Positions 5,395-58,656 of a stretch of 64,000 nt of DNA are shown one piece after another. The number at the start of each line of letters is the position of its first letter. Within the stretch, counting starts at the first letter, position 1. A program made the translations under genes and the position numbers. This DNA is from a virus. The stretch is taken from positions 23,160 through 87,159 of IMG/VR virus record IMGVR_UViG_3300046170_000371. The stretch is one strand, 5' to 3'. The notes below the pieces were generated by a model. That model had not been told where the DNA came from, searched no databases, and saw nothing but the letters and a program-made list of their open reading frames with translations.

Positions 5395-5961
5395 GTGGAT
5401 ATGATTGCACCATTAGGAGACCCGACTTATATTAAAAATAAAGAGAAATACTTTATGTCTATTGCTAAGACTGTAGGACTTGCTTCAACGCATCCTAAGT
5501 CTCCTGGCGGCTGCATTCTCGTACGTGACCGAGAGATTATTGGAGATGGACGTTCCATTCTCACAGCATCCAAAGTTGAAATTGATTGCCTGACATATGC
5601 CATTGCAACATGCTCTAAGCGAGGGACACCTACTGCTGGAGCGACCGTCTATACAACACGCTATCCCTTCTCTGCCTCAGTCTTTCAGTGTTACCTCATG
5701 GGTATTAAAAAGATTGTTGTCCTTGCACATGAATGGGAAGCTTATTACAAAGATGAATTCCGTCGAGCTGCACGGCTTGGACGTGAACTAAGCATCGCTA
5801 TCGAACCCCTCTTTGATGAGGAAGACCCACGCTTTGGGGTTAACAAAGCACCTAAACGCAAACTTGAAAAAGAACTCTACGACGCATCAACTTTTGTTGT
5901 CGATGAGTATGACCCAAAAACTACTACTGAAAATCTAGATGACTACCAACCTACTGTTTGA
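5395..5961 (+). CDS. dCMP-deaminase-like protein lacking the zinc ligands
   Basis: The fold pattern of cytidine/dCMP deaminases is clear: an N-terminal FMSIAKTVGLAST helix, then GGCILVRDREIIGDGRS strands, a helix, GATVYTTRYPF and GIKKIVVL. The catalytic motifs are altered: the HAE position reads VEIDC, and the PCxxC position reads PFSAS. Without these residues zinc binding and deamination are not expected. It may be a structural or regulatory remnant, or bind nucleotides. Start choices are GTG 5395 and ATG 5401. The end overlaps the DNA polymerase start by 23 bases. Confidence 0.6.
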   Translation: MDMIAPLGDPTYIKNKEKYFMSIAKTVGLASTHPKSPGGCILVRDREIIGDGRSILTASKVEIDCLTYAIATCSKRGTPTAGATVYTTRYPFSASVFQCYLMGIKKIVVLAHEWEAYYKDEFRRAARLGRELSIAIEPLFDEEDPRFGVNKAPKRKLEKELYDASTFVVDEYDPKTTTENLDDYQPTV

Positions 5962-7764
5962 CATTGAATCCACTGGCCTGCTTCGTCGCGGCTCCACCAT
6001 CCATTGCATTGTTGTGCGTGACATGAGCACAGCTAACGACCCTATTGTCTTTGACTACAAGCCTGAGCGTGCTGTCGTTCAAGGCATCAAGCAGCTTGAG
6101 AATGCTGATGCACTCATTGGTCACAACATTGCTGGCTATGACATCCCACTTATCAAAGAGCAGTTCCCTGACTTCGACTTCCAAGGTGAAGTGCTTGACA
6201 CTCTTGTCATGTCTCGCTTGTACTATCCAAACATCAGTGACCGCGATTATGAGCGTCGTCCTGATGGCATGCCTCAGCGTTTGTATGGACGTCATTCACT
6301 CGAAGCATGGGGCTATCGCTTAAAGTGTTTCAAGGGAGACTTTGCTAAGAACGAAAGCAACGACTGGAGTACTTACACCCCTGAGATGCTTGATTACTGC
6401 ATCCAAGATACGCAAGTCACACTGCGTTTATACGAACTACTACAACGAAGAATGGAGACTTATGCCTGATTACATCAAACTCGAAATGGATATGGCCATG
6501 CTTATGGCTCAGCAAGAAGCATCAGGGTTTCGCTTTGATATGGATGCTGCAGTGCGTGTTCGTGCACAGCTCCAGGATGAGTTTGATTCTATTACTGATG
6601 CTATTGCCAAAATATATCTGTACGTACCAGGTAAAGTCTTTACTCCCAAGCGTGCAGATAAGAAGCGTGGCTACGTAGCAGGTGCTCCTATGACACGTCT
6701 GACTGACTTCAATCCGACGTCACGTCAGAACATTGCATGGGCATTGCAGACCTTCCGTGGTGCTCGTTTTACAAGGGTTACAGAGACTGGTAAGCCTAAA
6801 GGTTGATGAAGCAACTCTCTCTGAGGTGCGGGACATTGCACTGTCTGCTGGTAATCAGCAGCTGCATGACGAGTGTGAGATGTTTATCCGTTTGTTGACA
6901 CTGCAGAAGTGGCTGGGTCAGCTGTCCGAGGGAACCAACTCTTGGTTCAACTCTATTGAGGGGGACGGCTGTATCCACCACAGCTGCACACTGTCAACAC
7001 AGACGGGACGTAACGCTCACCGTGGTCCCAACTTGGGCCAGGTCGTCTCTGCACCATGGGCACGTGAACTATTTGTTCCACACCCTGGTCACATCATGGT
7101 GGGTGCTGACTTAGAAGGACTGGAATTAAGACTGCTTGGGCACTACCTAGCAGCCTTTGATGAAGGCTCCTTCGCTGAGGTTGTTGTCAACGGCGACATC
7201 CATCAACAGAACGCTGACCGTGTGGGGTGTACACGTACACAAGTCAAGACCCTCACGTATGCGTTCATATACGGTGCAGGTGACGTGAAGCTGGGACATA
7301 GTCTTCAGCCTGAGCTGTCAGATGCACAGAAGAAAACACTTGGCGGTGAGTTACGCCGCAAATTCCTTGACGCTATCCCTGGATTGGAGCCATTAGTAGA
7401 TGCAGTTAAACTTAAAGTTCGGTCAACTGGTCGCCTTAGGGGCCTTGATGGGCGTCCTATATTCTGTCGTGCTGAGCACAGTAGTCCCAACTTCTTACTT
7501 CAGTCTGCCGGAGCAATCATCTCCAAGCGATGGGTGGTGATTGGGCAGCAACTGTTAGATGATGCAGGGCTTACGTATGACCGTGACTACACTCGCTGTG
7601 CTTACGTGCACGATGAAGTACAGATGTCTGTCGTGCCTGCTGAAGTTGACCGTATGAAGATGCTGTTAGAAGCAGCAGCACCTGAAGCTGGTAAGTACTA
7701 CAACCTGCGTGTGCCTATTGCTGCAGCTGCAGACCATGGTTCCTCATGGCAAGAGACCCACTAA
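5939..7764 (+). CDS. Family A DNA polymerase, T7-like, with 3'-5' exonuclease; two frame breaks
   Basis: Replicative polymerase. The first fragment is the DEDDy exonuclease: DIEST near residue 8, IGHNIAGYD near residue 60, and YCIQD near residue 160. The polymerase follows, with motif A GADLEGLELRLL, motif B around RTQVKTLTYAFIYGAG and motif C YVHDEVQ, and it ends with SSWQETH, matching the C-terminal His of T7 gp5. A break at about 6466 separates the domains. An in-frame ATG at 6462 with GGAG upstream means the split could be real. A second break at about 6800 lies in GKPK-VDEATL and clearly interrupts one conserved stretch. Confidence 0.9.
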
Positions 7765-45120: not shown

Positions 45121-46056
45121 TTACAAATACTCATTGATTTCGTCAGAGTTAGAACGTAATGCTCTAAGTGCTTTGTGCTCTAATGTACGAACACGGTCAC
45201 GGCTCATGTTAAGCACTTGACCAATAGCTGTCATTGACATTGGTTCAAGCATCTCATCACCAATTCCATAACGCATAGCCACAACAGCAGCTTGCATCTC
45301 AGGTAGCTCTGAAATCAATTCACGGATATCTTCTTTAATATATTGACGCTCAAGGATAAGCTCAGGTAGCTGTGATTCATCCTCAAGCAGGTCGATTAGA
45401 GCAGTATCTCTGTTCTCTCCAATCTTGATTTCTAGTGATGTAGGCTGACGTGCCTTACACATTAAATCTTTAATTTCATCTACAGTCAGGTCTAAGTATG
45501 CAGCAAGGTCAAATACATTTGGCATTTGTCCGTTCATCTGACTTAGTTCACGCTGGGCTTTTTTAAGTTTGTTGAGGTTCTCAGTAATGTGGATTGGTAA
45601 ACGGATTGCTCTGCTCTTTTCCGCAATCGCCCTTGTAATGCCTTGTCGAATCCACCAATATGCATAAGTAGAGAACTTATAGCCACGACCAGGATCGAAC
45701 TTCTCCACACCACGGACGAGTCCGATTGTTCCTTCTTGGATGATGTCCAAGAGCTCCATATTACGCTTGGTATATTTCTTTGCGACAGAGACAACAAGAC
45801 GAAGATTAGCGGTAACCATCTTGTCTTTTGCTCGTTCGCCATCACGCATCTCTTTTTTAATTTGCTTGTGAGTGATGTCCATAGCATCAGCTAAACCTTC
45901 TTCATCTAGCTCAAGCTCTTTTCTCATCTCCTTTAGTACCATCATACGCTGCACTTGACGTCCTAAAAGGATTTCTTCGTCATGCTCTAGAAGTGGAATA
46001 CGTCCGATGTCCCGCAGATAAGAACGTACTGAATCTCCTGAAAGTTTTACTGACAT
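45121..46056 (-). CDS. RpoD-like sigma factor, group-2 cyanobacterial type
   Basis: Redirects RNA polymerase to specific promoters. Region 1.2: SVRSYLRDIGRIPLLEHDEE. Region 2: MVTANLRLVVSVAKKYTKR, LLDIIQEGTIGLVRGVEKFD, GYKFSTYAYWWIRQGITRAI (the 2.3-2.4 -10 binding helix). Region 3: RLPIHITENLNKLKKAQREL. Region 4: SELPEMQAAVVAMRYGIG and a helix-turn-helix SMTAIGQVLNMSRDRVRTLEHKALRALR. At 311 residues it lacks region 1.1, as expected of group-2 sigmas, and is close in style to cyanobacterial SigB/C/D proteins. The frame is intact. Confidence 0.9.
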   Translation of the reverse strand: MSVKLSGDSVRSYLRDIGRIPLLEHDEEILLGRQVQRMMVLKEMRKELELDEEGLADAMDITHKQIKKEMRDGERAKDKMVTANLRLVVSVAKKYTKRNMELLDIIQEGTIGLVRGVEKFDPGRGYKFSTYAYWWIRQGITRAIAEKSRAIRLPIHITENLNKLKKAQRELSQMNGQMPNVFDLAAYLDLTVDEIKDLMCKARQPTSLEIKIGENRDTALIDLLEDESQLPELILERQYIKEDIRELISELPEMQAAVVAMRYGIGDEMLEPMSMTAIGQVLNMSRDRVRTLEHKALRALRSNSDEINEYL

Positions 46057-46963: not shown

Positions 46964-47986
46964 TCAGAGGTCTTGGATCATCATCTTCTGCTGGAAGGCA
47001 GCTGGAGGAGCCTGTGCCAGGACTTTCCATGCATCTTCAGGATTAGTATCCATCATGTCTCCGAAGCCACCCCAGAAGTCATTGGCGGGGTTTGCCTGAC
47101 GACCTGGTGTTGGCATCTCTTGAACAGGACGTTGGAAGTTCTGTGGAACCTGACCTTGCTCTTGAGCAATGATTTCAGCTTCGAACTGTTCACGTGCTTG
47201 CATCTGTGCAAGTTCAGCTGCTTCGCTTTCGGTCAGCGTTGGATAAGGACCTTCCATACCGAAGAAGTCGTTGACATAATCAGCCAAGACATCAGGGTCG
47301 GTAAGCATCAGGTTCATTGCTGCACGCTCTTCACCAGCTGCTTCAAGCACCAAAGACTGATGCTGACCACGCTGCACTTGCTCAATGAGGGCATCCTCAA
47401 CGGCACATGCATAGGTGTTCAGAAGGTTGGGAGCTTCAGCACCGAAGTGCTCAAGAACTTCAAGACTTTCGTCGCTGATTTGACTTAGATACGCGTCCCG
47501 TGCCGGAGCCTGACTTTCTGCCAGAGCCGGAGCCGGTGCGGCCACTTGCTGTTGCAGTGCCTGTTGCATCAAAGCCTGGGTTGAAGCTTGGGGAGAGTAG
47601 GTCTGCTGCGCCGAATACTGGGCTTGAGGTGCTTGAGCCTGGGGCATTGAAGCCCAATTGGTTTGTGTAGCTGCCTGGGGCGTTGGCGTCACTTGGTAAG
47701 CCGAGGGTGACACCTGGGCCTGGGACTGGTTGTTTGTATTCAAACTTGCGCTGAGCGCCTGGAACGCCTGCTGCCATGGATTGCCCTGGGGTGCCGAAGC
47801 CTGCGGGGCCGGGGCCTGTCCCTGGTAAGCCGGAGCCTGAGGCATTTGGGGCACCTGGACCTGATATGCCTGCGAGGCTTGTCCTTGGTTGCTCGCGTAC
47901 TGGCTGTCCTGCGCTGGCGCGGCGTAAGTCTGCGGGGCTGAGGCTTGGGGGGCGCTCGTCTGAGCTGTCTGGATGGTACTTTCCAC
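46964..47986 (-). CDS. Scaffold-like assembly protein (340 aa)
   Basis: The N-terminal half is Gln/Ala/Pro-rich and disordered (ASAPQTYAAPAQDSQYASNQ), and the second half is an acidic helical region (SLEVLEHFGAEAPNLLNTYA, LTESEAAELAQMQAREQFEA) ending FGDMMDTNPEDAWKVLAQAP. Composition, length and place between portal and capsid fit a scaffolding protein. The GTG start at 47986 has GGAG 10 bases upstream. The first 520 bases overlap the portal open frame; I think this frame is the real one there. Confidence 0.6.
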   Translation of the reverse strand: MESTIQTAQTSAPQASAPQTYAAPAQDSQYASNQGQASQAYQVQVPQMPQAPAYQGQAPAPQASAPQGNPWQQAFQALSASLNTNNQSQAQVSPSAYQVTPTPQAATQTNWASMPQAQAPQAQYSAQQTYSPQASTQALMQQALQQQVAAPAPALAESQAPARDAYLSQISDESLEVLEHFGAEAPNLLNTYACAVEDALIEQVQRGQHQSLVLEAAGEERAAMNLMLTDPDVLADYVNDFFGMEGPYPTLTESEAAELAQMQAREQFEAEIIAQEQGQVPQNFQRPVQEMPTPGRQANPANDFWGGFGDMMDTNPEDAWKVLAQAPPAAFQQKMMIQDL

Positions 47987-49739
47987 TGTAACTTAACTCC
48001 TTACGTAAAAATTCGAGTGATCTATATAGGAACCCAGTAATATCTAGGTTGGGGTCAGACGCCAGTGGAAGTTCTGGTGTCTGTGGATGGGGCAACTGAT
48101 ATAGTTGACCTAATAATCCGATGAAACTGTTAATACTTTGCTGAGTTTGTTGGACCATTCGGAATGGGTAGCCACTCAACATTGCTGCCCTTTCTTCGTC
48201 AGTCTTGCTTGGGAAAAGGTACTTAAGTGCTTCAATAGAATCCACACCCAGTTCTTGAAGGTTACGTACGACAATACTGTTATTAAGTATGTCTTGTGCG
48301 TCATCTTCAAAGATGTCACCCATCCAACGCCAGCTAACTAAAGTGCTACCGTCGGGGATTAAACCTGTTACTCCGTCAGGCATTTCGCCTGTATCTAGAC
48401 TAACACGAATTGCTTCTTCCCTTTTCTTGGTGAACTTCTCTATAGCAGCAATGTATTTTTCCATTGCTACTGAGTATTCCTGAGGGTCTTCAAACTCTTC
48501 CTGCAGTGGTACTACAGGTTGTTTGAGACCGATTGCAACTGCAAAGCTCTCCTTAAACATCTTCTCTTCATGCTGAATCATCAGACTGAAGAGTTTGCAT
48601 AAGCCGTAGCTGAACAGTGCTTTTGCTTTCTTCTCTGCTGTAGCAGCACACCTTCCGTACAGAGATTTCATTTCATATGCAGTAGAAGCAGTGTTGATGT
48701 CAATATCATCTACACCACCCAGTGCCAGTCTGATTTCAGAACGGTACTGTTTGATATACATATTCTGGTCACCACTCACACTGTCAGGCGTGAGGTAGTT
48801 GACACGGTCAGTTGGCTCAAGGTTTGCGATTACTCGGGGCACCTTAATTTGACCATCTAAAGCAGACGCGCCACCAAACGGTTCACTGACTCGGGTGCTA
48901 CTACGTCCAATAGCAGCAAAGCCTGCTTGGCTACTAATAGTTGGACGGAAGCTACCTTCATCACCACTCTCAATAATGTCGTGTTTGGGGCGACTAGAGA
49001 TTAGTGTGGGGTTACCAAAGAACTTGAGGTTCTTACGGACGTTTTTGACTAGCTCATCGTGATAGAGAATCTGATTGGCTAACCAATCAAACTCACCATT
49101 ACCTGTAGCTTCACCAGTACAGTCCATGTGATTGAACACTTCGACTGCTGGAATGAAACCGAGACTATTGGTTAAGACCTCAGTCTCACCCTGCATGTTA
49201 TTGATTTGAGCTCCCATCTCGTTCTCAAAGTCAATCCTCTCATTAGAGATTGTCTGTTCGATACGGTCACGGAATACTTTCAGTCGGATGTATTTTTTCT
49301 TACCGCCTTTACCGTCTGACCTTGCAAATGTATCAAGCAGATTAGGCTCTTGTACATTAAAAGTATAAATTAAGACGATGTTCTCAAGGTCACCATTCTG
49401 GTCACGATAAGCACGATAGTTTTCTTTAGGGAAGAACAGAAGCTGATAATCATCTCCTGATGGCCTGAAGTAGAACAGACCTTGTCCGTCACATAAGAAG
49501 TAATCAACAATACTGTCGAGCTTCATCTCAAGCATGTTGTGATCTACAACACGTTTGACAAACTCTTTGCGATAACCGAAGCTATCTTGGTCTGCGTAGA
49601 ACTCAATACCCTTACGCAGCATGAACATCCTCATCTGTGATAGATGAGAACTGACAATCATTGAATCAACAGCAAGGTCCCCACGCCGTTCTTTCGCGGC
49701 TGTGAGGATCTGTTCAAACTGACTGTTAACTTGATTCAT
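47460..49739 (-). CDS. Portal protein (C-terminal 170 residues of the frame doubtful)
   Basis: Forms the ring at the capsid vertex for DNA entry. Positioned between terminase and scaffold, of portal size, with DSMIVSSHLSQMRMFMLRKG, VDYFLCDGQGLFYFRPSGDD, PTLISSRPKHDIIESGDEGS and GGVDDIDINTASTAYEMKSL (portal-type stretches). The frame stays open for 527 bases into the scaffold gene; dropping one T of the TTTTT run at about 48005 would end it at a TAA right before the scaffold ribosome site. I therefore take the true end near 47995. Confidence 0.7.
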   Translation of the reverse strand: MNQVNSQFEQILTAAKERRGDLAVDSMIVSSHLSQMRMFMLRKGIEFYADQDSFGYRKEFVKRVVDHNMLEMKLDSIVDYFLCDGQGLFYFRPSGDDYQLLFFPKENYRAYRDQNGDLENIVLIYTFNVQEPNLLDTFARSDGKGGKKKYIRLKVFRDRIEQTISNERIDFENEMGAQINNMQGETEVLTNSLGFIPAVEVFNHMDCTGEATGNGEFDWLANQILYHDELVKNVRKNLKFFGNPTLISSRPKHDIIESGDEGSFRPTISSQAGFAAIGRSSTRVSEPFGGASALDGQIKVPRVIANLEPTDRVNYLTPDSVSGDQNMYIKQYRSEIRLALGGVDDIDINTASTAYEMKSLYGRCAATAEKKAKALFSYGLCKLFSLMIQHEEKMFKESFAVAIGLKQPVVPLQEEFEDPQEYSVAMEKYIAAIEKFTKKREEAIRVSLDTGEMPDGVTGLIPDGSTLVSWRWMGDIFEDDAQDILNNSIVVRNLQELGVDSIEALKYLFPSKTDEERAAMLSGYPFRMVQQTQQSINSFIGLLGQLYQLPHPQTPELPLASDPNLDITGFLYRSLEFLRKELSYSGKYHPDSSDERPPSLSPADLRRASAGQPVREQPRTSLAGISGPGAPNASGSGLPGTGPGPAGFGTPGQSMAAGVPGAQRKFEYKQPVPGPGVTLGLPSDANAPGSYTNQLGFNAPGSSTSSPVFGAADLLSPSFNPGFDATGTATASGRTGSGSGRKSGSGTGRVSKSNQRRKS

Positions 49740-50566: not shown

Positions 50567-50571
50567 TTCAT

Positions 50572-52110
50572 TTATAAATCAAAGCTGTCCCTATTGTAGT
50601 CTAATTGTAAATTACCTCGTCTCAATAGTCCTCCCATTGTTAATACCATACTGTCTACAGCATCATCATGAGTTGTCTGTCCAAAGTTAAGTAGCTCTTC
50701 TTCTAATACATCCCACTTACGCCATTTGTTCCATACCACTCGTTTGTGTTCATATAGACCAAGTACACCTCGTAGTCTTGCTAGTTTGTCGCCTTTGAAT
50801 CCTTTAACAGGGGACATGGTGAGGTTATATAGAGCACGATTATCAAGCATGATGCGCTTGAAATCACCTTCAAATGAGTTCTGATATGCAACAGCTTCAG
50901 GCCATATCATGCACGGTGACATTGTTGGGAAGTATTGTCCTTCATCGTTCTCTTCAAGGATGTTCCAGTCAGCCAACATCTCGCACATAATGTCTATCTT
51001 TTCTAGGTTGCCGAGCGTACGTGCACGTCTCTGGTCAATCAGATATATCTTCCCGTCTTTAATTCCCCCAAGGGTCATGACGGTCCAGTCATTTTTCTCT
51101 TTAAGACCAGCACTAAGGTCCATTCCAATGCCTAGGCAGTCGTAATCTTCTGGCACTTCTGCTTTAACAATCAGCTCTGGAGAAATACCAACATCAGCAG
51201 ACTTAACTGCGGTGTTGAGGTACTGGTATGCAAATGCAACACGGTCTTCACTCTTACGTTCGTTTAGATATTTCATAGACCAGAATTCTGGCCAGTATGA
51301 ACGTTGTCTACCATCACTGTCAGTAATGACTGCTTTCTGGATTATCTGTTTCCAATTGTTCTTAGGAACGAAAAGCGTGGCGTGGATGTCATCAAAGTGA
51401 AAACGGGTACCCAAGCAAATAGCCCGTGCCCCTTGAAACATCGTCGGTGCAATAACGTTAGACCATGTCTGTTCCATCTCACGGCGAATATCCGGATTGT
51501 TGATGGAAGCTGCGGACTTGATAGGGTCATCGATAAGCACCAGCTGGGATCTCTTTGAAGTAATGGCTCCCTTGAGACCCCCACACGCAATTGTAAAAGC
51601 CTCTTCACCTGCTGTATCAATCCCTGCAAAGTCATAGTCAATACTCCAATATTCATCTGAACGCTTAATCTTTGAGAGCCTCACCATTGGGAATATCTCT
51701 CTGTACTTATTACTTGTAAGAATGCCTTTGATAGTTGCAGACTTAGCTCGACTAATATCAACCATGTAGGCGATATATAGAATACGCAGCATCTGTTTAG
51801 CAGCAGCGTGTCTGCCAATCATCCATGCTGCAAACAATCCGAGGACTGTGGATTTGGCAGAACCACGTGGTGCAAGGATTGCAGTATTAGGTCCACCTAC
51901 TCCTAGTAAGCACTCAGTATCTTCACCTGTGCATAGCTCTGCATGCCACTCCAGCATATGATTAGCAGGAGATTTACCCATATAATCACAAAAATCTTTG
52001 AAGTCGTCTCTCGCTCTAAGTACTTCTGGTGATGGTGGTTTTACGGTTACTTTTGTTGCTGTCATTAAGGCAGCACGTTTAAATGCTAATGCGCTACTTG
52101 CAATTGCCAT
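50572..52110 (-). CDS. terL: Terminase large subunit
   Basis: Packages DNA into the prohead. Walker A-type ILAPRGSAKSTVLGLFAAW near residue 80; Walker B QLVLIDDPI near residue 195 followed by the coupling motif CLGTRFHFDDIH near residue 235. The C-terminal RNase H-like nuclease is visible in GIGMDLSAGLKEKNDWTVMT near 330 and DDAVDSMVLTMGGL near the end, which places its catalytic acids. Length 512 is normal. The gene is intact and lies upstream of the portal, as in most tailed phages. Confidence 0.9.
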   Translation of the reverse strand: MAIASSALAFKRAALMTATKVTVKPPSPEVLRARDDFKDFCDYMGKSPANHMLEWHAELCTGEDTECLLGVGGPNTAILAPRGSAKSTVLGLFAAWMIGRHAAAKQMLRILYIAYMVDISRAKSATIKGILTSNKYREIFPMVRLSKIKRSDEYWSIDYDFAGIDTAGEEAFTIACGGLKGAITSKRSQLVLIDDPIKSAASINNPDIRREMEQTWSNVIAPTMFQGARAICLGTRFHFDDIHATLFVPKNNWKQIIQKAVITDSDGRQRSYWPEFWSMKYLNERKSEDRVAFAYQYLNTAVKSADVGISPELIVKAEVPEDYDCLGIGMDLSAGLKEKNDWTVMTLGGIKDGKIYLIDQRRARTLGNLEKIDIMCEMLADWNILEENDEGQYFPTMSPCMIWPEAVAYQNSFEGDFKRIMLDNRALYNLTMSPVKGFKGDKLARLRGVLGLYEHKRVVWNKWRKWDVLEEELLNFGQTTHDDAVDSMVLTMGGLLRRGNLQLDYNRDSFDL

Positions 52111-52140
52111 ACTGTTAAACTTTTGTCTTTAGTCTAACGG

Positions 52141-52422
52141 CTAGTATCTTCCCTCGGCATATCTTTGAGCAATCCTATCTTCTGCTCTTGATTTAGCACG
52201 CATAACAATTGCACGCTGTCTATCTTCTTCATAAGCAATACCAATTGCTGCTGCCATAGCTGCTGCTTCTTCTGCACGGTCACCCATAAAGAATGATTCA
52301 ACTCCTGCACCTGGAATAGATGGTAGTCGTTGCTGCAGTGTGCCTTGCAGCCGAATACGGTTAACACTTAAGTCAGGAGTGTTAGTCAGTAACTCAGGTA
52401 GTAGCAGGTCTAGATCATCCAT
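52141..52422 (-). CDS. Small hypothetical protein (93 aa)
   Basis: MDDLDLLLPELLTNTPDLSV, then an Ala-rich helix (RAEEAAAMAAAIGIAYEEDR, QRAIVMRAKSRAEDRIAQRY). Overlaps the upstream gene by eight bases and ends 30 bases before terL. It may be part of the packaging machinery, by position only. Confidence 0.5.
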   Translation of the reverse strand: MDDLDLLLPELLTNTPDLSVNRIRLQGTLQQRLPSIPGAGVESFFMGDRAEEAAAMAAAIGIAYEEDRQRAIVMRAKSRAEDRIAQRYAEGRY

Positions 52423-52957
52423 TCGTTACCTCTGCATAGACCTTTGCCCACACTGCGTTGATTGCATTCTCCATAGGTTCTGCAAACTGTGGGTCATCTT
52501 TAAAGATGGAAGTAATCTCACGCATTACACGGTCAGCACCTGCAAGGATAAGACCACGCTTATCAGTTGTCTTATTCATTCGGTCTGACGTTTCAATATG
52601 AGACCGTAGCTCTTTCTCTAATGCTGCTAATCTTGCACAACCATTATCACCTTTGATTTCTCCTGCTGTAATTGCCATTCGAAGCTCTTGAATATCAGAG
52701 TGAAGAGCAGCAATCTCACTATTGAGAATTTCACGACGGTTAAGTTTTTTATATTTCATCTTTACCCAACGAGCTAAATCGTTGAATGTACCTGGATACT
52801 TGAGAATACCTGCATATACCCAAATCTCAATAATGCTTGGAGTGACATCAGCAAATTCTTTGAAGTCTTCTGATTCAGCAGCAGGGAGAGTGTCTAGCCA
52901 TTGGTCTACATAAGTAATGTAAACCTTGCCTCCAGCTTGTTTGGTTGATGCAGTCAT
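52415..52957 (-). CDS. Probable terminase small subunit (180 aa)
   Basis: A helical DNA-binding-like protein: YITYVDQWLDTLPAAESEDF, then TPSIIEIWVYAGILKYPGTF, a helix-turn-helix-type segment, and RREILNSEIAALHSDIQELR coiled coil, ending AINAVWAKVYAEVTNG. Size, oligomer-forming coil and place upstream of terL fit a small terminase. No family match is certain. Confidence 0.5.
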   Translation of the reverse strand: MTASTKQAGGKVYITYVDQWLDTLPAAESEDFKEFADVTPSIIEIWVYAGILKYPGTFNDLARWVKMKYKKLNRREILNSEIAALHSDIQELRMAITAGEIKGDNGCARLAALEKELRSHIETSDRMNKTTDKRGLILAGADRVMREITSIFKDDPQFAEPMENAINAVWAKVYAEVTNG

Positions 52958-53740
52958 CAGAATGCCCTCGCCATAGTACGTGACCTAGCACTTTGACGAT
53001 TAGATTTCTGTGCTTCAATCTTGTCACCTTCTTGCATCGTCTTACGGTCCTCACTTCCTTGAGAACCAATCTTACGGACATCTTGGTCACCTTGAGCACC
53101 AATCTTGCGAACATCTTGGTCGCCTTGTGCTCCAATTGTCTGTCGGTCTTGGTCTCCTTGAGCTCCAATAGTCAGACGATCTTGGTCTCCAGTAGCACCA
53201 ATCTTATCAATATCAATCTTTCCTTGAGTCTGAAGGTTCATTCGGTCTTGTTCACCTTGAACTCCAACCGTTACTCGGTCTTGCTCCCCTTGAGTAATCT
53301 TACTAAGCCTATCCTGTTGCCCTTCAGCACTAATGTTTGAACGTTGCTGTTCTCCTGTAGCACTAAGCATTCCTAAGTCACGACCATGTTGTGCTATTAG
53401 CAAAATCGTTTTCAAAGTTAAACTGAGCTTCCATGGATTGCATTCCATAGTTAAACTCGTTTCTTCATATTAGCCGCTTGGTTTTCGGTTGCTCCAAGTC
53501 AGCCTGATGCGTCATATTCTCTTGTGGCTAAAGCAGAGTTATGCGTTGACATCTGCTGTGCAAGCATGGAATCAAATCCAGACTGCACCATATTCCTTGA
53601 TATGCCTGTTTCTGTGCAGTCAGTCCAGCATCTCCACTGTCTCCATTCCATAGAAATCATCCATGATGTTCTGGAAAATTGAACATCCCACCTTGAGAGC
53701 CCTTACTTTACTCTTTGCCATAGTATCTACGTTGAGTCAT
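52957..53740 (-). CDS. Virion protein with GxQGDQDR repeats; N-terminal third broken by many frameshifts
   Basis: The intact 3' part holds about ten copies of an 11-residue repeat (IGAQGDQDRQT, KIGATGDQDRL), a regular rod such as a beta-solenoid or collagen-like stalk. The end is basic (RQSARSRTMARAF). Upstream of 53450 pieces in all frames fit one protein (MTQRRYYGKE, GGMFNFPE, MVQSGFDSMLAQQMSTHNSA, QFNFENDFAN), separated by at least seven indels within 290 bases. Probably an internal virion or tail component as in other cyanophages; no enzymatic motif seen. Confidence 0.5.
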
Positions 53741-53796: not shown

Positions 53797-54784
53797 ATGC
53801 GGTTTGCTTCTATCGGTGGTCAAAGTAATTACGCTCAAGCAGGTAAGGCTGTAGCTAATGAAGGAGAAAAAGCTCTAAACGTTACCCGTCAGAATTCTGT
53901 TGACTTTGGTGGATTGGCACGGGCTGGAATGCAAGTCAGGTCTGATGAAAAAGTTGCTGCTACTAAAGCAGGTGCTTATGTTGAAGAAGCGAAGATTGCT
54001 GCTAATAAGACGACTAAACTACATGCTGCAAAGATGTCACAGGCCAAGAGTGGTGTCATGCGTAAAGCTGGTGGTCTTATTGCACTAGGTGTTGGTGGAC
54101 TTGCAGAGAAATCAGAGAAGCGTGACTACTCTCTCTATGACAAGAAGATTGCAGGAATGAAAGAGAAAAATGCTGCAGATAGAGTGACCATGGCTGGCAT
54201 AGATACCAGTGGTAAAAAGACTGAAGCACCTACAACTCCTGCTTCTAATACTGGTGGTACCGCTGTTTCGGGTGCAAGCACTACATCCTCTTCTGCTAAA
54301 CCAATGAAGAGTGGAGATACAGCTATGAATATGATGCGTGATTTAACTGGTGATGGCTATAGTCCAACTCAAGCTGCTGCTATTACTGGCAACGCTCAAT
54401 ATGAAAGTGCTAACTTCACTGCTCATGAAGAGTATGCACCAAATGCATATGGAACGAAAGGTGCTGGCTACTTTCAATGGACAAATGCTGGTGGCTCTAA
54501 TAGGAGAGATAACTTTGAAAACTATGCAAAGAATAATAAACTAGACCCACGTTCATATCAAGCTAATACCGGATTCATGATGCACGAACTTAAGGGCGGC
54601 GCTGGTAACCACTGGACTGGGGGCATGAATGACCAAGGGCTTCCGTCAAATTGGTGACTTGTCTACTGCTGTTAATGCTTTCCAAAATAATTACTTACGT
54701 CCTGCTAAAGACACTGCTAATACTAGTCAGCGTCTAAGCAATGCTCAGAATATTCTTCAACAATTCCAGTCTCAGAATAGTTAA
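53797..54784 (+). CDS. Virion-associated lysozyme with MRFA-type N-terminus, one frameshift
   Basis: N-terminus MRFASIGGQSNYAQAGKAVA, then an Ala/Lys-rich coil to residue 120 and a Ser/Thr linker. From about 170 a Phage_lysozyme2-type domain appears: NMMRDLTGDGYSPTQAAAI, TGNAQYESANFTAHEEYAPN (Glu), GTKGAGYFQWTNAGGSNR and FMMHELKGGAGNHW. After the break at about 54633 it continues FRQIGDLSTAVNAFQNNYLR. It would cut the cell wall during DNA entry. On the + strand opposite to its neighbours; 3' end touches the convergent gene. Confidence 0.7.
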
Positions 54785-55497
54785 ACAGCAAACGCAGCAC
54801 CAAGTGAAGACAGTCCAGCTACTAATGCTTGGATTGATTCACGACGACGATTCTTTTCATCCTTACGGTCTGCACGTTCCATAGACTCACGACGGAACAT
54901 CAGTTCATCAGCACGAGATTCACGTGCATCAATACGGTCTGCTAGACGATTCTTATCTGACTGTGCCATTTGAGCACGTGTCAGTTCCATTTGGTTAGCA
55001 ACATCAGTACGTCCAGCATTGAACTGCTCTGCTTGGACTCTACGTGCTTCTCTCTGTTGAGGAGAATTAAAAGCATCTGATTGAATTTGTGCTGTATCTT
55101 TTCTTTGATTACTTCGTCGTTGGTCAGCAACCATTCCTGTTAAAGTTGCTACGTCCTTAACTTCTCCAGCATTTCCACCTAACGCAGTCAATTGACGACT
55201 AAGTGTTCTTGATTGACCTGCGTCTTCTACACGTAGCCCAAGGGCACCTTTATTGCCCATGTCAGCTGCAGTTACATCTACACCTAACGCTGCTGCTTTC
55301 TGCCCTGCTGCACTACGGTTGTATCTATTAAGTTCTCCAATATTAGAACGGCTATCTAAATACTCAGAATCTCCACCAAATGCACGTTGAATTAAATTAG
55401 GTTCATATTTACCTGTACCTTCATCTTTCTGCAAGCGTCCTTCAGCAGCATCTCGTCCACCACCAAATTCGTACTTAAGCCAATTTAAAGGGTCCAT
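54781..55497 (-). CDS. Internal virion-type protein (238 aa)
   Basis: MDPLNWLKYEFGGGRDAAEG, then mostly helical, Arg/Gln/Ala-rich sequence with a long coil (QMELTRAQMAQSDKNRLADR, RESRADELMFRRESMERADR) and a final glycine/ala segment (ALVAGLSSLGAAFAV) that could insert into a membrane. Fits an ejection-type protein by pattern. Confidence 0.5.
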   Translation of the reverse strand: MDPLNWLKYEFGGGRDAAEGRLQKDEGTGKYEPNLIQRAFGGDSEYLDSRSNIGELNRYNRSAAGQKAAALGVDVTAADMGNKGALGLRVEDAGQSRTLSRQLTALGGNAGEVKDVATLTGMVADQRRSNQRKDTAQIQSDAFNSPQQREARRVQAEQFNAGRTDVANQMELTRAQMAQSDKNRLADRIDARESRADELMFRRESMERADRKDEKNRRRESIQALVAGLSSLGAAFAV

Positions 55498-55525
55498 CTT
55501 CTGAAAGCTCTATCCTTCTACTATT

Positions 55526-56156
55526 TTACACAGCTGCGAGAGCTTGTTTTGCTTCAAGCCTCATCAGTCGTGTTTCAAGTTGTTGATTAGCACGCACCAA
55601 CAGTCCAATCAGGTCTGTGGTATCAATGCAGAGCTTACCAATACTCTCGTCATAGTAGGTAGCGTCAGGTACAACTTTTGGAACTCCTGTGCAATAAACC
55701 CATGATGCATACGCTCTGGGCTTGCACTGTACTCTTCCTTATAGAAGAAGGTGACAGGACGCAAGCTACGTAGGGTAGTTAATGCATCATCAATCGTATC
55801 TACTGTATGCTTCGTGCTCTCGTCACTCAAGCCAATAGCAGCACCAGCAATACTACCGATGGCACCCATCATTCCAGTTGATTCCTGTGCACTAGCACTT
55901 TCTCTGCAGCTTTGACTTGTGCTTTAGCTTGTACACTTGCTGCAGTTACTTGTGCTTCTGCTGCCATTGCAGCTTGCTTCTCTTTAGACCTTGCATCCAT
56001 TGCTGTTGCAGCAATCTGGTCATACTTAGGTGAGCTCTCTCTAACGCTGCCAAAGGCATCGGCAACACTCACTGCATCTGCTGCAGCTCCAGCATTACTT
56101 CCTACTGCTCCAGAACGTAGTTGAATAGGATCAAACTTACCTGCAAATCTAGTCAT
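55526..56156 (-). CDS. S74-type self-cleaving fibre chaperone domain protein, two frame breaks
   Basis: N-terminus MTRFAGKFDPIQLRSGAVGS, Ala-rich coil, then the intramolecular chaperone: GLSDESTKHTVDTIDDALTT, LRSLRPVTFFYKEEYSASPE, RMHHGFIAQEFQ and, in the next frame, VVPDATYYDESIG, DTTDLIGLLVRANQQ. This is the Peptidase S74/ICA pattern (Ser in LSDES, GFIAQEF), which trimerises fibres and cuts itself off. Breaks at about 55885 and 55675 look like single missing bases or double extra ones. Confidence 0.7.
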
Positions 56157-56193
56157 CTAACTATTGTTCTAGTATCTTTTTATTTTAACCGGT

Positions 56194-56511
56194 TCACATA
56201 TTTGCTTTAAACCAACTGTCGGCTTCACTTTTAGCAGTGTCCCAAGTATTCTTTTTACCAAGTGCTCCTAGCCCTCCAGAGATACCACTACTTAGTCCAC
56301 CTACAATTCCACCAAAATGAGCAGCATCAGCTTGTGCAGCACCTGCTTTCTCTGTTGCTTTGGCTTGAACTCCAGCTGCAGCTACTGCTCCTTGTGCTTG
56401 CATACTCATAGCTCTTTCTTCAGATTGGTTCTGAAGAGATTGATTAGCAACCATCCCTAAATTAGGACTATTGCCCATGAACTGTTCAGCCCTATCTCCT
56501 GCAAATCTCAT
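56194..56511 (-). CDS. MRFA-type virion protein with glycine zipper (105 aa)
   Basis: N-terminus MRFAGDRAEQFMGNSPNLGM, Ala/Gln-rich coil (GAVAAAGVQAKATEKAGAAQ), then HFGGIVGGLSSGISGGLGAL and a basic end. Same plan as the neighbouring MRFA proteins: short tag, coil, glycine-zipper. Membrane-active ejection protein likely. Confidence 0.55.
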   Translation of the reverse strand: MRFAGDRAEQFMGNSPNLGMVANQSLQNQSEERAMSMQAQGAVAAAGVQAKATEKAGAAQADAAHFGGIVGGLSSGISGGLGALGKKNTWDTAKSEADSWFKANM

Positions 56512-57728
56512 TATTCAAGGCTCATATCAGTTCTTTTATTGTACTGTCTTTCGTTTTCTTCTTTATTACGACGACGGCGTTCACCTTCAATAAGGTTTCC
56601 TCCGATTTGACCAGCAGCTAGTCCTGCAAGTCCTCCAATCAGTCCACCTCTAATTGGTTTCTGCATACGTACACCAGCTGCTCCACCTGCTACTGAACTG
56701 ACAAAAGGAATAACACCTGTTGTTAGTGGAAGGCTTCTACCCAAGAACTGTAGTTCTGGACCATGGATTCCTTCGTCTGTTGTTTTCAGTACACCACCAG
56801 GTAGTGTTAGATCACCATCCATAGGATTCAAGTCAGTATTCTTGTCATACTTAAATGCTTGATACCTGTTGTATTCGTCCTTGCTTACGTCTGGTCTTAC
56901 TTTTGAAAACTCATCATAAGGCAGTAAGTTTCCTGTACGTCCCATGAAATATTTTAGTGCTACTTCTTCTAAAACGTTAGCTGTCTTCGTTGGGTCTTCT
57001 TCACTAGGCACCGCAGCTTTATAGCCTTCAGCTCCACCAAAGGGTGTTAATAGTCCTAATCCTGTGTTGATTGCAATTCCACTTGGGATAGCCAATGACT
57101 GCAATACTCCTGGCTCAAAATTACGTTTTACATATTTAGCATCATTACCCTTACCGCTAACACTATATCCACGTCTTGGTTGTAACTGTCCGTCAATCAT
57201 CTTGGCTGCACCCTGCTCCATAGCCTGAGCCTTGGCAGAGGGTCTCAGTACATCCCCTGTTAACTCATTAATGACATCAGTCTTACCGTAAAGATTTGGG
57301 GCATTCTTTGCTGTTGCATTTGCTGCTTTGAGTACTCCTTCATTAATCACTTCACCAGATGCTTGTAATGCATTAAGCAACCAGTAAAACCTACGTGTAG
57401 AATCTTGTGTCAAGTCAGCACCTACTGAGCCAAGCACCTGACCTGTTTGATATGCCTTACTTCTATCTGTTGCTAAACCTAAGTCCATCTCCTGTCTAGC
57501 TTGTACACCTTCAGGAGTAGCTGTCTTTGTTAGTTCTCTAATGCGTTGTCCTAATGGATAAGCAGCAGTCATTTGGTCCCACTTTGGACCCTCTGACTGT
57601 TTACCTTGTAGTTCACGCTCTCGGTACATTCCTTTGCGAGCGTCTTCTCCACCAATCGCATAGTCGTGCTTGAAGCCCTCCTTTACTTCACCTAGTTGTT
57701 TCAGTAGTCCAGCGAATCTTCCAGCCAT
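56511..57728 (-). CDS. Large internal virion protein with glycine-zipper C-terminus (405 aa)
   Basis: MAGRFAGLLKQLGEVKEGFK, then helical sequence (NEGVLKAANATAKNAPNLYG), a region with PSGIAINTGLGLLTPFGGAE, and a C-terminal block VIPFVSSVAGGAAGVRMQKP and GLIGGLAGLAAGQIGGNLIE that suits membrane insertion. Ends basic (RRRRNKEENERQYNKR). Ejection protein of podovirus type is my best reading. Confidence 0.55.
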   Translation of the reverse strand: MAGRFAGLLKQLGEVKEGFKHDYAIGGEDARKGMYRERELQGKQSEGPKWDQMTAAYPLGQRIRELTKTATPEGVQARQEMDLGLATDRSKAYQTGQVLGSVGADLTQDSTRRFYWLLNALQASGEVINEGVLKAANATAKNAPNLYGKTDVINELTGDVLRPSAKAQAMEQGAAKMIDGQLQPRRGYSVSGKGNDAKYVKRNFEPGVLQSLAIPSGIAINTGLGLLTPFGGAEGYKAAVPSEEDPTKTANVLEEVALKYFMGRTGNLLPYDEFSKVRPDVSKDEYNRYQAFKYDKNTDLNPMDGDLTLPGGVLKTTDEGIHGPELQFLGRSLPLTTGVIPFVSSVAGGAAGVRMQKPIRGGLIGGLAGLAAGQIGGNLIEGERRRRNKEENERQYNKRTDMSLE

Positions 57729-57733
57729 TGTCT

Positions 57734-58364
57734 TTAACGCAACAAGTCAGTTTGGTTGTATCCACCGATGCCTAGCTGTGCGAGCATCTGTCGTTCAATC
57801 TCTGAGCGATACTGCTGATCACCTTCTTGTTGCAGTTTTTCCCAAGGTGTAGTGCCTCCACCCTTGGCTCGTAGTACTGCATCTGATACAACTTGACCTC
57901 CCATATCTCCAACTAAGTTTCCTGCCAGCTCAGCTCCCATTCGTGGTAGCGCCCTGTTGGCCAAACTTACCTAATGCACTAACTGCACCTACACCACCAA
58001 GTGCGCCGCCAATGGCGGTGCTTCCTCCAGCAATTAATTTATCTCCTAAGTCACCAGGTGTCATAGCACCTTGCATTACACCGAAGACTGCATCAGGTGC
58101 AAAGTTAGCTGCAACGTTTCCTGCAGTTACTCCGCCTGGTCCCATGTAATTAGCAAGAGCATTTCCTGCAAATTTTTTGACTGCTCCCATGCCACCTTTC
58201 GTTGCAGCTCCTTTAGCTGCTCCCATTAAGCCTGGGATTGCAAGCTGTGCAGCTTTTGCTCCACCTGTTAATCCTTTTGCCATTCCAATTGCTGATGCAA
58301 GCTTTGCACCAATTCCAAGTTTTGCTAATCCAGCTCCGGCAGCTGCTACTAAAGGTACAGGCAT
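57734..58364 (-). CDS. Glycine/alanine-rich membrane-active virion protein, one frameshift
   Basis: MPVPLVAAAGAGLAKLGIGA and two further Gly/Ala stretches (AQLAIPGLMGAAKGAATKGG, AGGSTAIGGALGGVGAVSAL) make it strongly membrane-active. The second fragment gives RALPRMGAELAGNLVGDMGG and RSEIERQMLAQLGIGGYNQ. The break at about 57962 lies in GGCC. Likely an ejection protein. Confidence 0.5.
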
Positions 58365-58368
58365 TTAA

Positions 58369-58656
58369 TTATTCTTGAGGCGGTACTCCCATTTTAGCGG
58401 CATTCCATTGTGCACCTTGATTAGAAGTTCCAAACATCTTCATCCAGTTAGCAGTTCGTTTTGTTTCTTCTGGATTGTTCATTAGCTCCATAGCACGAGA
58501 ACCTACTTCCCCAGCCATACGTCGGTTTGACTTTGACAAGTCTCCAGTGGGATTTACTTCTGTTGTACCGTTCGTCGATGCAAATGAGTTAGGTGTTTCA
58601 CGAGACTTCTGTTGGTTCAGTCGTCCGTTTTGGATATCCTTTTGATTGAAGTTCAT
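58369..58656 (-). CDS. Small virion-type protein (95 aa)
   Basis: MNFNQKDIQNGRLNQQKSRE, disordered Asn/Gln-rich, then VGSRAMELMNNPEETKRTAN. No domain. Overlaps the end of the upstream gene by four bases. Confidence 0.45.
   Translation of the reverse strand: MNFNQKDIQNGRLNQQKSRETPNSFASTNGTTEVNPTGDLSKSNRRMAGEVGSRAMELMNNPEETKRTANWMKMFGTSNQGAQWNAAKMGVPPQE

Follow-up and report, generated by a model that had tools for sequence, protein, structure and literature searches.

A paralogous N-terminal module and a recurrent R[FM]AG motif in proteins encoded around the terminase and portal of a marine relative of cyanophage S-EIV1

How non-shell proteins are selected for the particles of short-tailed phages is poorly understood. 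The capsid targeting sequence (CTS) of phage T4 stands at the N-terminus, and the prohead protease cuts it off at an (L/I)xE site. Diverse T4 proteins share only this short signal into the prohead core (PMC3012670), and among podovirus ejection proteins (T7 gp14, gp15 and gp16; P22 gp7, gp16 and gp20) hydrolase domains are exchanged from one protein to another in mosaic fashion (PMC8954989). The locus described here resembles the CTS in logic only, in that a short motif, R[FM]AG, is common to otherwise unrelated proteins whose internal location in the particle is putative; we claim no sequence relation. Unlike the CTS, the motif is often internal to the protein, and direct reading of the first 25–35 residues of proteins P0001, P0002 and P0004 revealed no (L/I)xE site just after the tag. 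As in ejection proteins, a wall-degrading domain, membrane-type segments and mosaic hydrolase exchange are found, ejection itself being putative. However, the hydrolase is C-terminal, is encoded by a separate gene on the opposite strand and lies behind a module common to other proteins, and no PHROG of the T7-type internal virion protein families was among the matches of the module proteins.

The DNA analysed here (the window, 64,000 nucleotides) is part of an 87,159-base IMG/VR virus record. Its terminase is 54.8% identical, over 98%, to the TerL of Synechococcus phage S-EIV1 (KJ410740), the sole close isolate in the phage collection by terminase comparison, and many environmental contigs carry terminases 88–99% identical to that of the window. 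Judged from this homology with S-EIV1-like cyanophages, the source genome is a marine relative of S-EIV1 from an uncultured marine cyanobacterial virus group; a marine environmental group including S-EIV1 has already been reported (PMC5332604). S-EIV1 also carries a relative of the 405-residue protein of the window (Table 1), but its virion block gives no match to the module described below, and S-EIV1 is not enriched in R[FM]AG. The S-EIV1 terminase (L086:14995-17535, 846 residues) aligns to the 512-residue terminase of the window as two segments separated by an intein-like insertion. When cellular genomes were searched with the terminase, relatives turned up in four MAG contigs of unrelated taxa (L243–L246; Crocinitomicaceae, Blastopirellula and others), which we discarded as host evidence because they are probably misbinned phage contigs.

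We compared 90 related loci, some from overlapping contigs, with genes called mechanically on metagenomic contigs and families grouped by simple thresholds. Upstream of the terminase, they share a conserved order: a Gly/Ala-rich gene of 200 residues, a 400-residue gene, a small glycine-zipper gene, an S74 gene, a 230-residue gene, the opposite-strand lysozyme gene, a repeat gene, two small genes and the terminase. The Phage_lysozyme2 and S74 domains, together with this gene context, suggest that the products are virion proteins. A sequence-only reading had proposed that four adjacent virion proteins begin with a common MRFA/RFAG tag that was kept through an inversion. All four starts are in the sequence (Table 1), but that of the lysozyme reads RFAS, not RFAG, and adjacency holds only in part, a 238-residue gene (54781–55497) separating the lysozyme from the S74 gene. 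Every relative likewise has its lysozyme gene on the opposite strand; this lineage-wide arrangement requires no inversion and gives no evidence of one, and we rejected that part of the proposal.

Table 1. Features of the tagged gene block in the window
Feature	Position	Strand	Remarks
Lysozyme gene	53797..54785	+	Start MRFASIGG; module residues 1 to about 85; Phage_lysozyme2
Lysozyme open frame	ends 54657	+	Remainder (to about 54785) in another frame
Lysozyme RKAG and Gly-rich segment	near residues 88-103	+	After the module
S74 Gly-rich segment and self-cleaving chaperone domain	55526..55872	-	Not in the frame of the module; open over 55609-55872, remainder to about 55526
S74 protein N-terminal module	55869..56156	-	MTRFAGKFD...VQAKAQVKAAEK; residues 1-81 80% identical to intact L002 protein
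Small glycine-zipper protein with module	56194..56511	-	Start MRFAGDRAEQ; hhalign matches
405-residue Gly-rich protein	56511..57728	-	Start MAGRFAG; unrelated to module
Gly/Ala-rich protein	57930..58364	-	KKFAGNAL in place of the R[FM]AG of relatives; extends to 57734 in a different frame
95-residue protein with RMAGEVGSRAMEL	58369..58656	-	Motif at 58510-58521; motif here in 24/28 relatives

Frameshifts in the window affect at least the repeat, lysozyme, S74 and 200-residue genes, with indel clusters at 53360–53700, about 54600, 55679–55900 and 57959; the genes broken here are whole in the related contig L002. The indels cluster outside the terminase stretch (50570–53169), which aligns without gaps, making real gene decay less likely than sequencing or assembly error, the probable cause judging from this comparison. 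On paper, the window's own copies of these genes are thus damaged. Towards the left end of the window, genes resembling a primase and a DNA polymerase (ORFs at 50–2282 and 5939–7764) are split as well.

The lysozyme, the S74 protein and the glycine-zipper protein are paralogous over their N-terminal 60–80 residues. Pairwise hhalign comparisons of the N-terminal profiles of the S74, lysozyme and zipper families, as opposed to database searches, gave E-values of 7e-13, 3e-9 and 7e-9, with the zipper family matching the S74 module at 3e-9 and the lysozyme module at 7e-9. The matches stayed when the first 14 residues, containing the tag, were removed (E 8e-12, 1e-8 and 7e-8). Composition bias was ruled out, because 100 column permutations per pair scored 10.6 at most, versus 42–64 for the real profiles, and reversed profiles of the module families produced no cross-family match; unrelated neighbouring families did not match the module profiles either (E about 0.02–1). 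When run on the ORFs of the fetched loci, a combined module profile retrieved almost only these families and small S74-less relatives, the exceptions being few and weak. No match to the module was found in isolates of the phage collection; the lysozyme N-terminal alignment is too variable to scan that collection.

In many members the module opens with a tag of the RFA type; a conserved S-P-x-[YF] region follows and runs into a long predicted helix. AlphaFold models of the module proteins had a mean pLDDT of about 50 and, given this confidence, were used for secondary structure only; they consistently show one helix, then an interruption at the S-P-x-[YF] region, then a helix of 47–58 residues, with an additional helix near the Gly-rich stretch. 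Ala-rich coils with VQAKA or KAG repeats had earlier been attributed to the tagged proteins in general, but VQAKA occurs in the S74 and glycine-zipper proteins only. C-terminal to the module, lysozymes carry exchangeable wall-degrading domains, the S74 gene encodes a chaperone domain and the small proteins have only a Gly-rich hydrophobic segment. The suggestion of one tag with exchangeable C-terminal effectors is therefore borne out by profile homology for these three proteins. It fails for the 405-residue protein, which lacks a coil of the VQAKA type and does not resemble the module families by profile (E 0.4–0.8); only one of the 37 members of its family contains the motif, versus 0.8 expected, and the relatives start MAKDRMQQIRNIL or similar. 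We removed it from the set, its RFAG being probably a chance occurrence on these counts.

In the window, the lysozyme ORF 53797–54657 matches Phage_lysozyme2 (PF18013, phage tail lysozyme) with 59.6 bits, against a cut-off of 28.2. Among 18 lysozyme C-termini, we found Phage_lysozyme2 in ten, SLT-type domains (SLT/SLT_3) in five and Hydrolase_2 (cell-wall hydrolase, PF07486) in one, and a Glucosaminidase and a phrog_90-type endolysin follow the module in L124 and L002, respectively, so that at least five kinds of wall-degrading domain occur behind it among relatives. The terminase of L002 is 99% identical to that of the window, yet its enzyme is another, indicating that the enzyme was swapped behind a conserved N-terminus. 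Such exchange may be how these phages adapt to different host walls. L124 also contains a tandem pair of lysozyme-type genes (L124:7627-9843, minus strand), both with the module, the second being the one with the Glucosaminidase domain.

The Peptidase S74 profile (PF13884) matches the open frame 55609–55872 with 46 bits, against a cut-off of 22, and the protein contains an SDESTK dyad with the lysine five residues after the serine, as for the catalytic Ser-Lys dyad known from endosialidases (PMC3742443). In this contig the RFAG-bearing ORF terminates before the S74 domain, which is not complete in any single frame; the L002 homologue is intact (210 residues). The S, D and K are invariant in 12 aligned proteins and SDxxxK is present in 28 of 31. 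Two relatives have cysteine in place of the serine nucleophile (CDERTK), and a third has lost the dyad (L121:487-1149, L124:5758-6471 and L102:5998-6663). The domain thus resembles intramolecular chaperones in profile, dyad and C-terminal place, but what precedes it is a short helical module and a Gly-rich segment instead of a beta-helical tailspike. In L037, L068 and others, the gene stops after the same GSALGAIG-type zipper, giving S74-less versions of 145–147 residues, and nothing else in the 82-kb L068 genome matches S74. From their sequences, these relatives fit a putative self-removal of S74 after trimerisation.

Homologues often keep the RFA-type start. RFA falls within the first seven residues of 39/109 module proteins (lysozymes 13/48, S74 proteins 15/33, small proteins 11/28), as compared with 9/536 other genes and a shuffled expectation of 0.04–0.1 per module family. 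The tag is variable nonetheless: the looser pattern [RKQN]F[ANSG] is found in that stretch in 28 of the 48 lysozymes, many lysozymes start with KFNS or QFNS, those of L082 and L035 have no tag at all, and the S74 proteins of some subclades also do without it. Its R, F and A codons vary synonymously across the 90 loci, which indicates selection on the protein and rules out a DNA-level signal as its cause. For three of the four starts, the proposed shared signal is borne out, but it is larger, belonging to a paralogous helical module, and also wider, since R[FM]AG is found internally in unrelated families.

Among 623 non-redundant genes, RMAG occurs 73 times and RFAG 55 times, each against 3.4 expected (128 versus about 7 together), whereas no other arrangement of these letters exceeds 11 occurrences. 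RMAG is the tetrapeptide found in most families (six), tied with AAGA. RKAG is also raised (42 versus 7), chiefly in lysozymes before the zipper. Owing to shared ancestry these counts are not independent events; how many unrelated families contain the motif is a better guide. In a held-out set of 39 unused contigs with 289 new genes, we found 24 copies versus 1.5 expected, ruling out, together with the letter permutations, composition bias as the source. Five genomes of the lineage hold 4–7 copies each (0.3–0.8 expected). R[FM]AG recurs as a lineage-specific motif in several unrelated families around the terminase and portal: the module superfamily, the gene between terminase and portal (20/41), the 95–100-residue gene (24/28), the 200-residue (16/32) and 180-residue (15/27) genes, a 124-residue gene (3/3) and the RMAGGLVGAILGGG family. 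The 200- and 180-residue families are related to each other (E 1e-6); beyond the pairs mentioned, profiles of the other motif families compared gave no convincing match. A few copies lie in genes outside the virion block. Usually the motif is single per protein, at a family-specific place, with hardly any acidic residue at positions -3 to -1, D, E or S directly after the G, and a hydrophobic residue (54%) three positions after it.

Taken as a whole, module and R[FM]AG would be best explained as a lineage-specific docking signal to a common virion or assembly partner, a proposal from sequence comparison whose chances we consider evenly balanced. The role in packaging or assembly suggested by the sequence-only reading would likewise be the best guess. 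Counting against docking are the module proteins that lack the tag, the motif copies away from the virion block and the low confidence of the AlphaFold models. A docking peptide is the simplest reading of fixed letters, usually present in one copy, at a flexible and often N-terminal place, with an acid-free upstream and a hydrophobic downstream flank. The module would act as a virion anchor or assembly helix, which S74 may trimerise before removing itself, as the dyad and the S74-less relatives suggest; a single phage partner, whether portal, scaffold, core or capsid, would recognise R[FM]AG in all of them, and docking would load the motif proteins into the particle. The gene context, with terminase, portal, S74, lysozyme and Gly-rich segments, suggests particle proteins, some perhaps ejected, and some of those loaded may later help the genome to cross the envelope through wall digestion and membrane-active Gly-rich segments. 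More tentatively, and with somewhat less chance of being right, R[FM]AG could be a position-flexible, lineage-wide loading code in which a single receptor serves at least six unrelated families and genes are recruited by gaining the motif. If true, this compact motif would be a direct handle on protein loading in a widespread uncultured marine cyanophage lineage, would aid virion protein prediction in metagenomes and might be used as a tag for loading cargo.

The main rivals of docking are a membrane-helix start and a protease site. R[FM]AG might have arisen by convergence in membrane-inserting proteins as the sequence with which a membrane-active or Gly-zipper helix preferentially begins, with a basic and a bulky residue at the interface followed by small residues, and it does immediately precede a Gly-rich hydrophobic stretch in lysozymes, the RMAGGLVGAILGGG family and others. 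We consider this unlikely, because no hydrophobic stretch directly follows the motif in the S74, small, 95-residue and terminase-portal families, and because lysine, which a general interface role would allow, is not accepted for arginine (K[FM]AG is not enriched, with 8 copies versus 7.2 expected). Moreover, R[FM]AG is at background level in S-EIV1, T7 and P-SSP7. Less probable still is a recognition site for a maturation protease trimming virion proteins: one short motif per protein across many particle-block proteins is what such an enzyme leaves, and cleavage at internal copies near residues 45–60 would free N-terminal propeptides, but at residues 2–7, where the motif lies in the S74, small and several other families, a cut would remove few residues, and the genes tested at 36–53 kb, most of them without known function, included none recognisable as a prohead protease. 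That the tags are functionless residues inherited with the duplicated module, the rest being chance, is the least probable, for although common descent alone explains the shared start of three paralogous families and the fourth protein's tag is probably a chance match, the motif is strongly enriched in families without profile similarity to the module and on held-out contigs, and its letters are kept while neighbouring residues diverge.

Other genes of the block showed further peculiarities. The repeat gene (52957–53448, minus strand; L002:12325-13215) encodes a protein of QGEQDR-type repeats, about 170–600 residues long among relatives and often with a conserved C-terminus ending in ARAF or ARSF. 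A 340-residue ORF (46964–47986, minus strand) overlaps the portal-like gene (47460–49739, minus strand) by 527 bases in another frame, identically in L002, and may be a scaffold-like gene over-extended by mechanical gene calling. Finally, a complete sigma-70 factor with regions 1.2, 2, 3 and 4 is encoded inside the virion gene block (45121–46056, minus strand), and a related ORF is present in L022.
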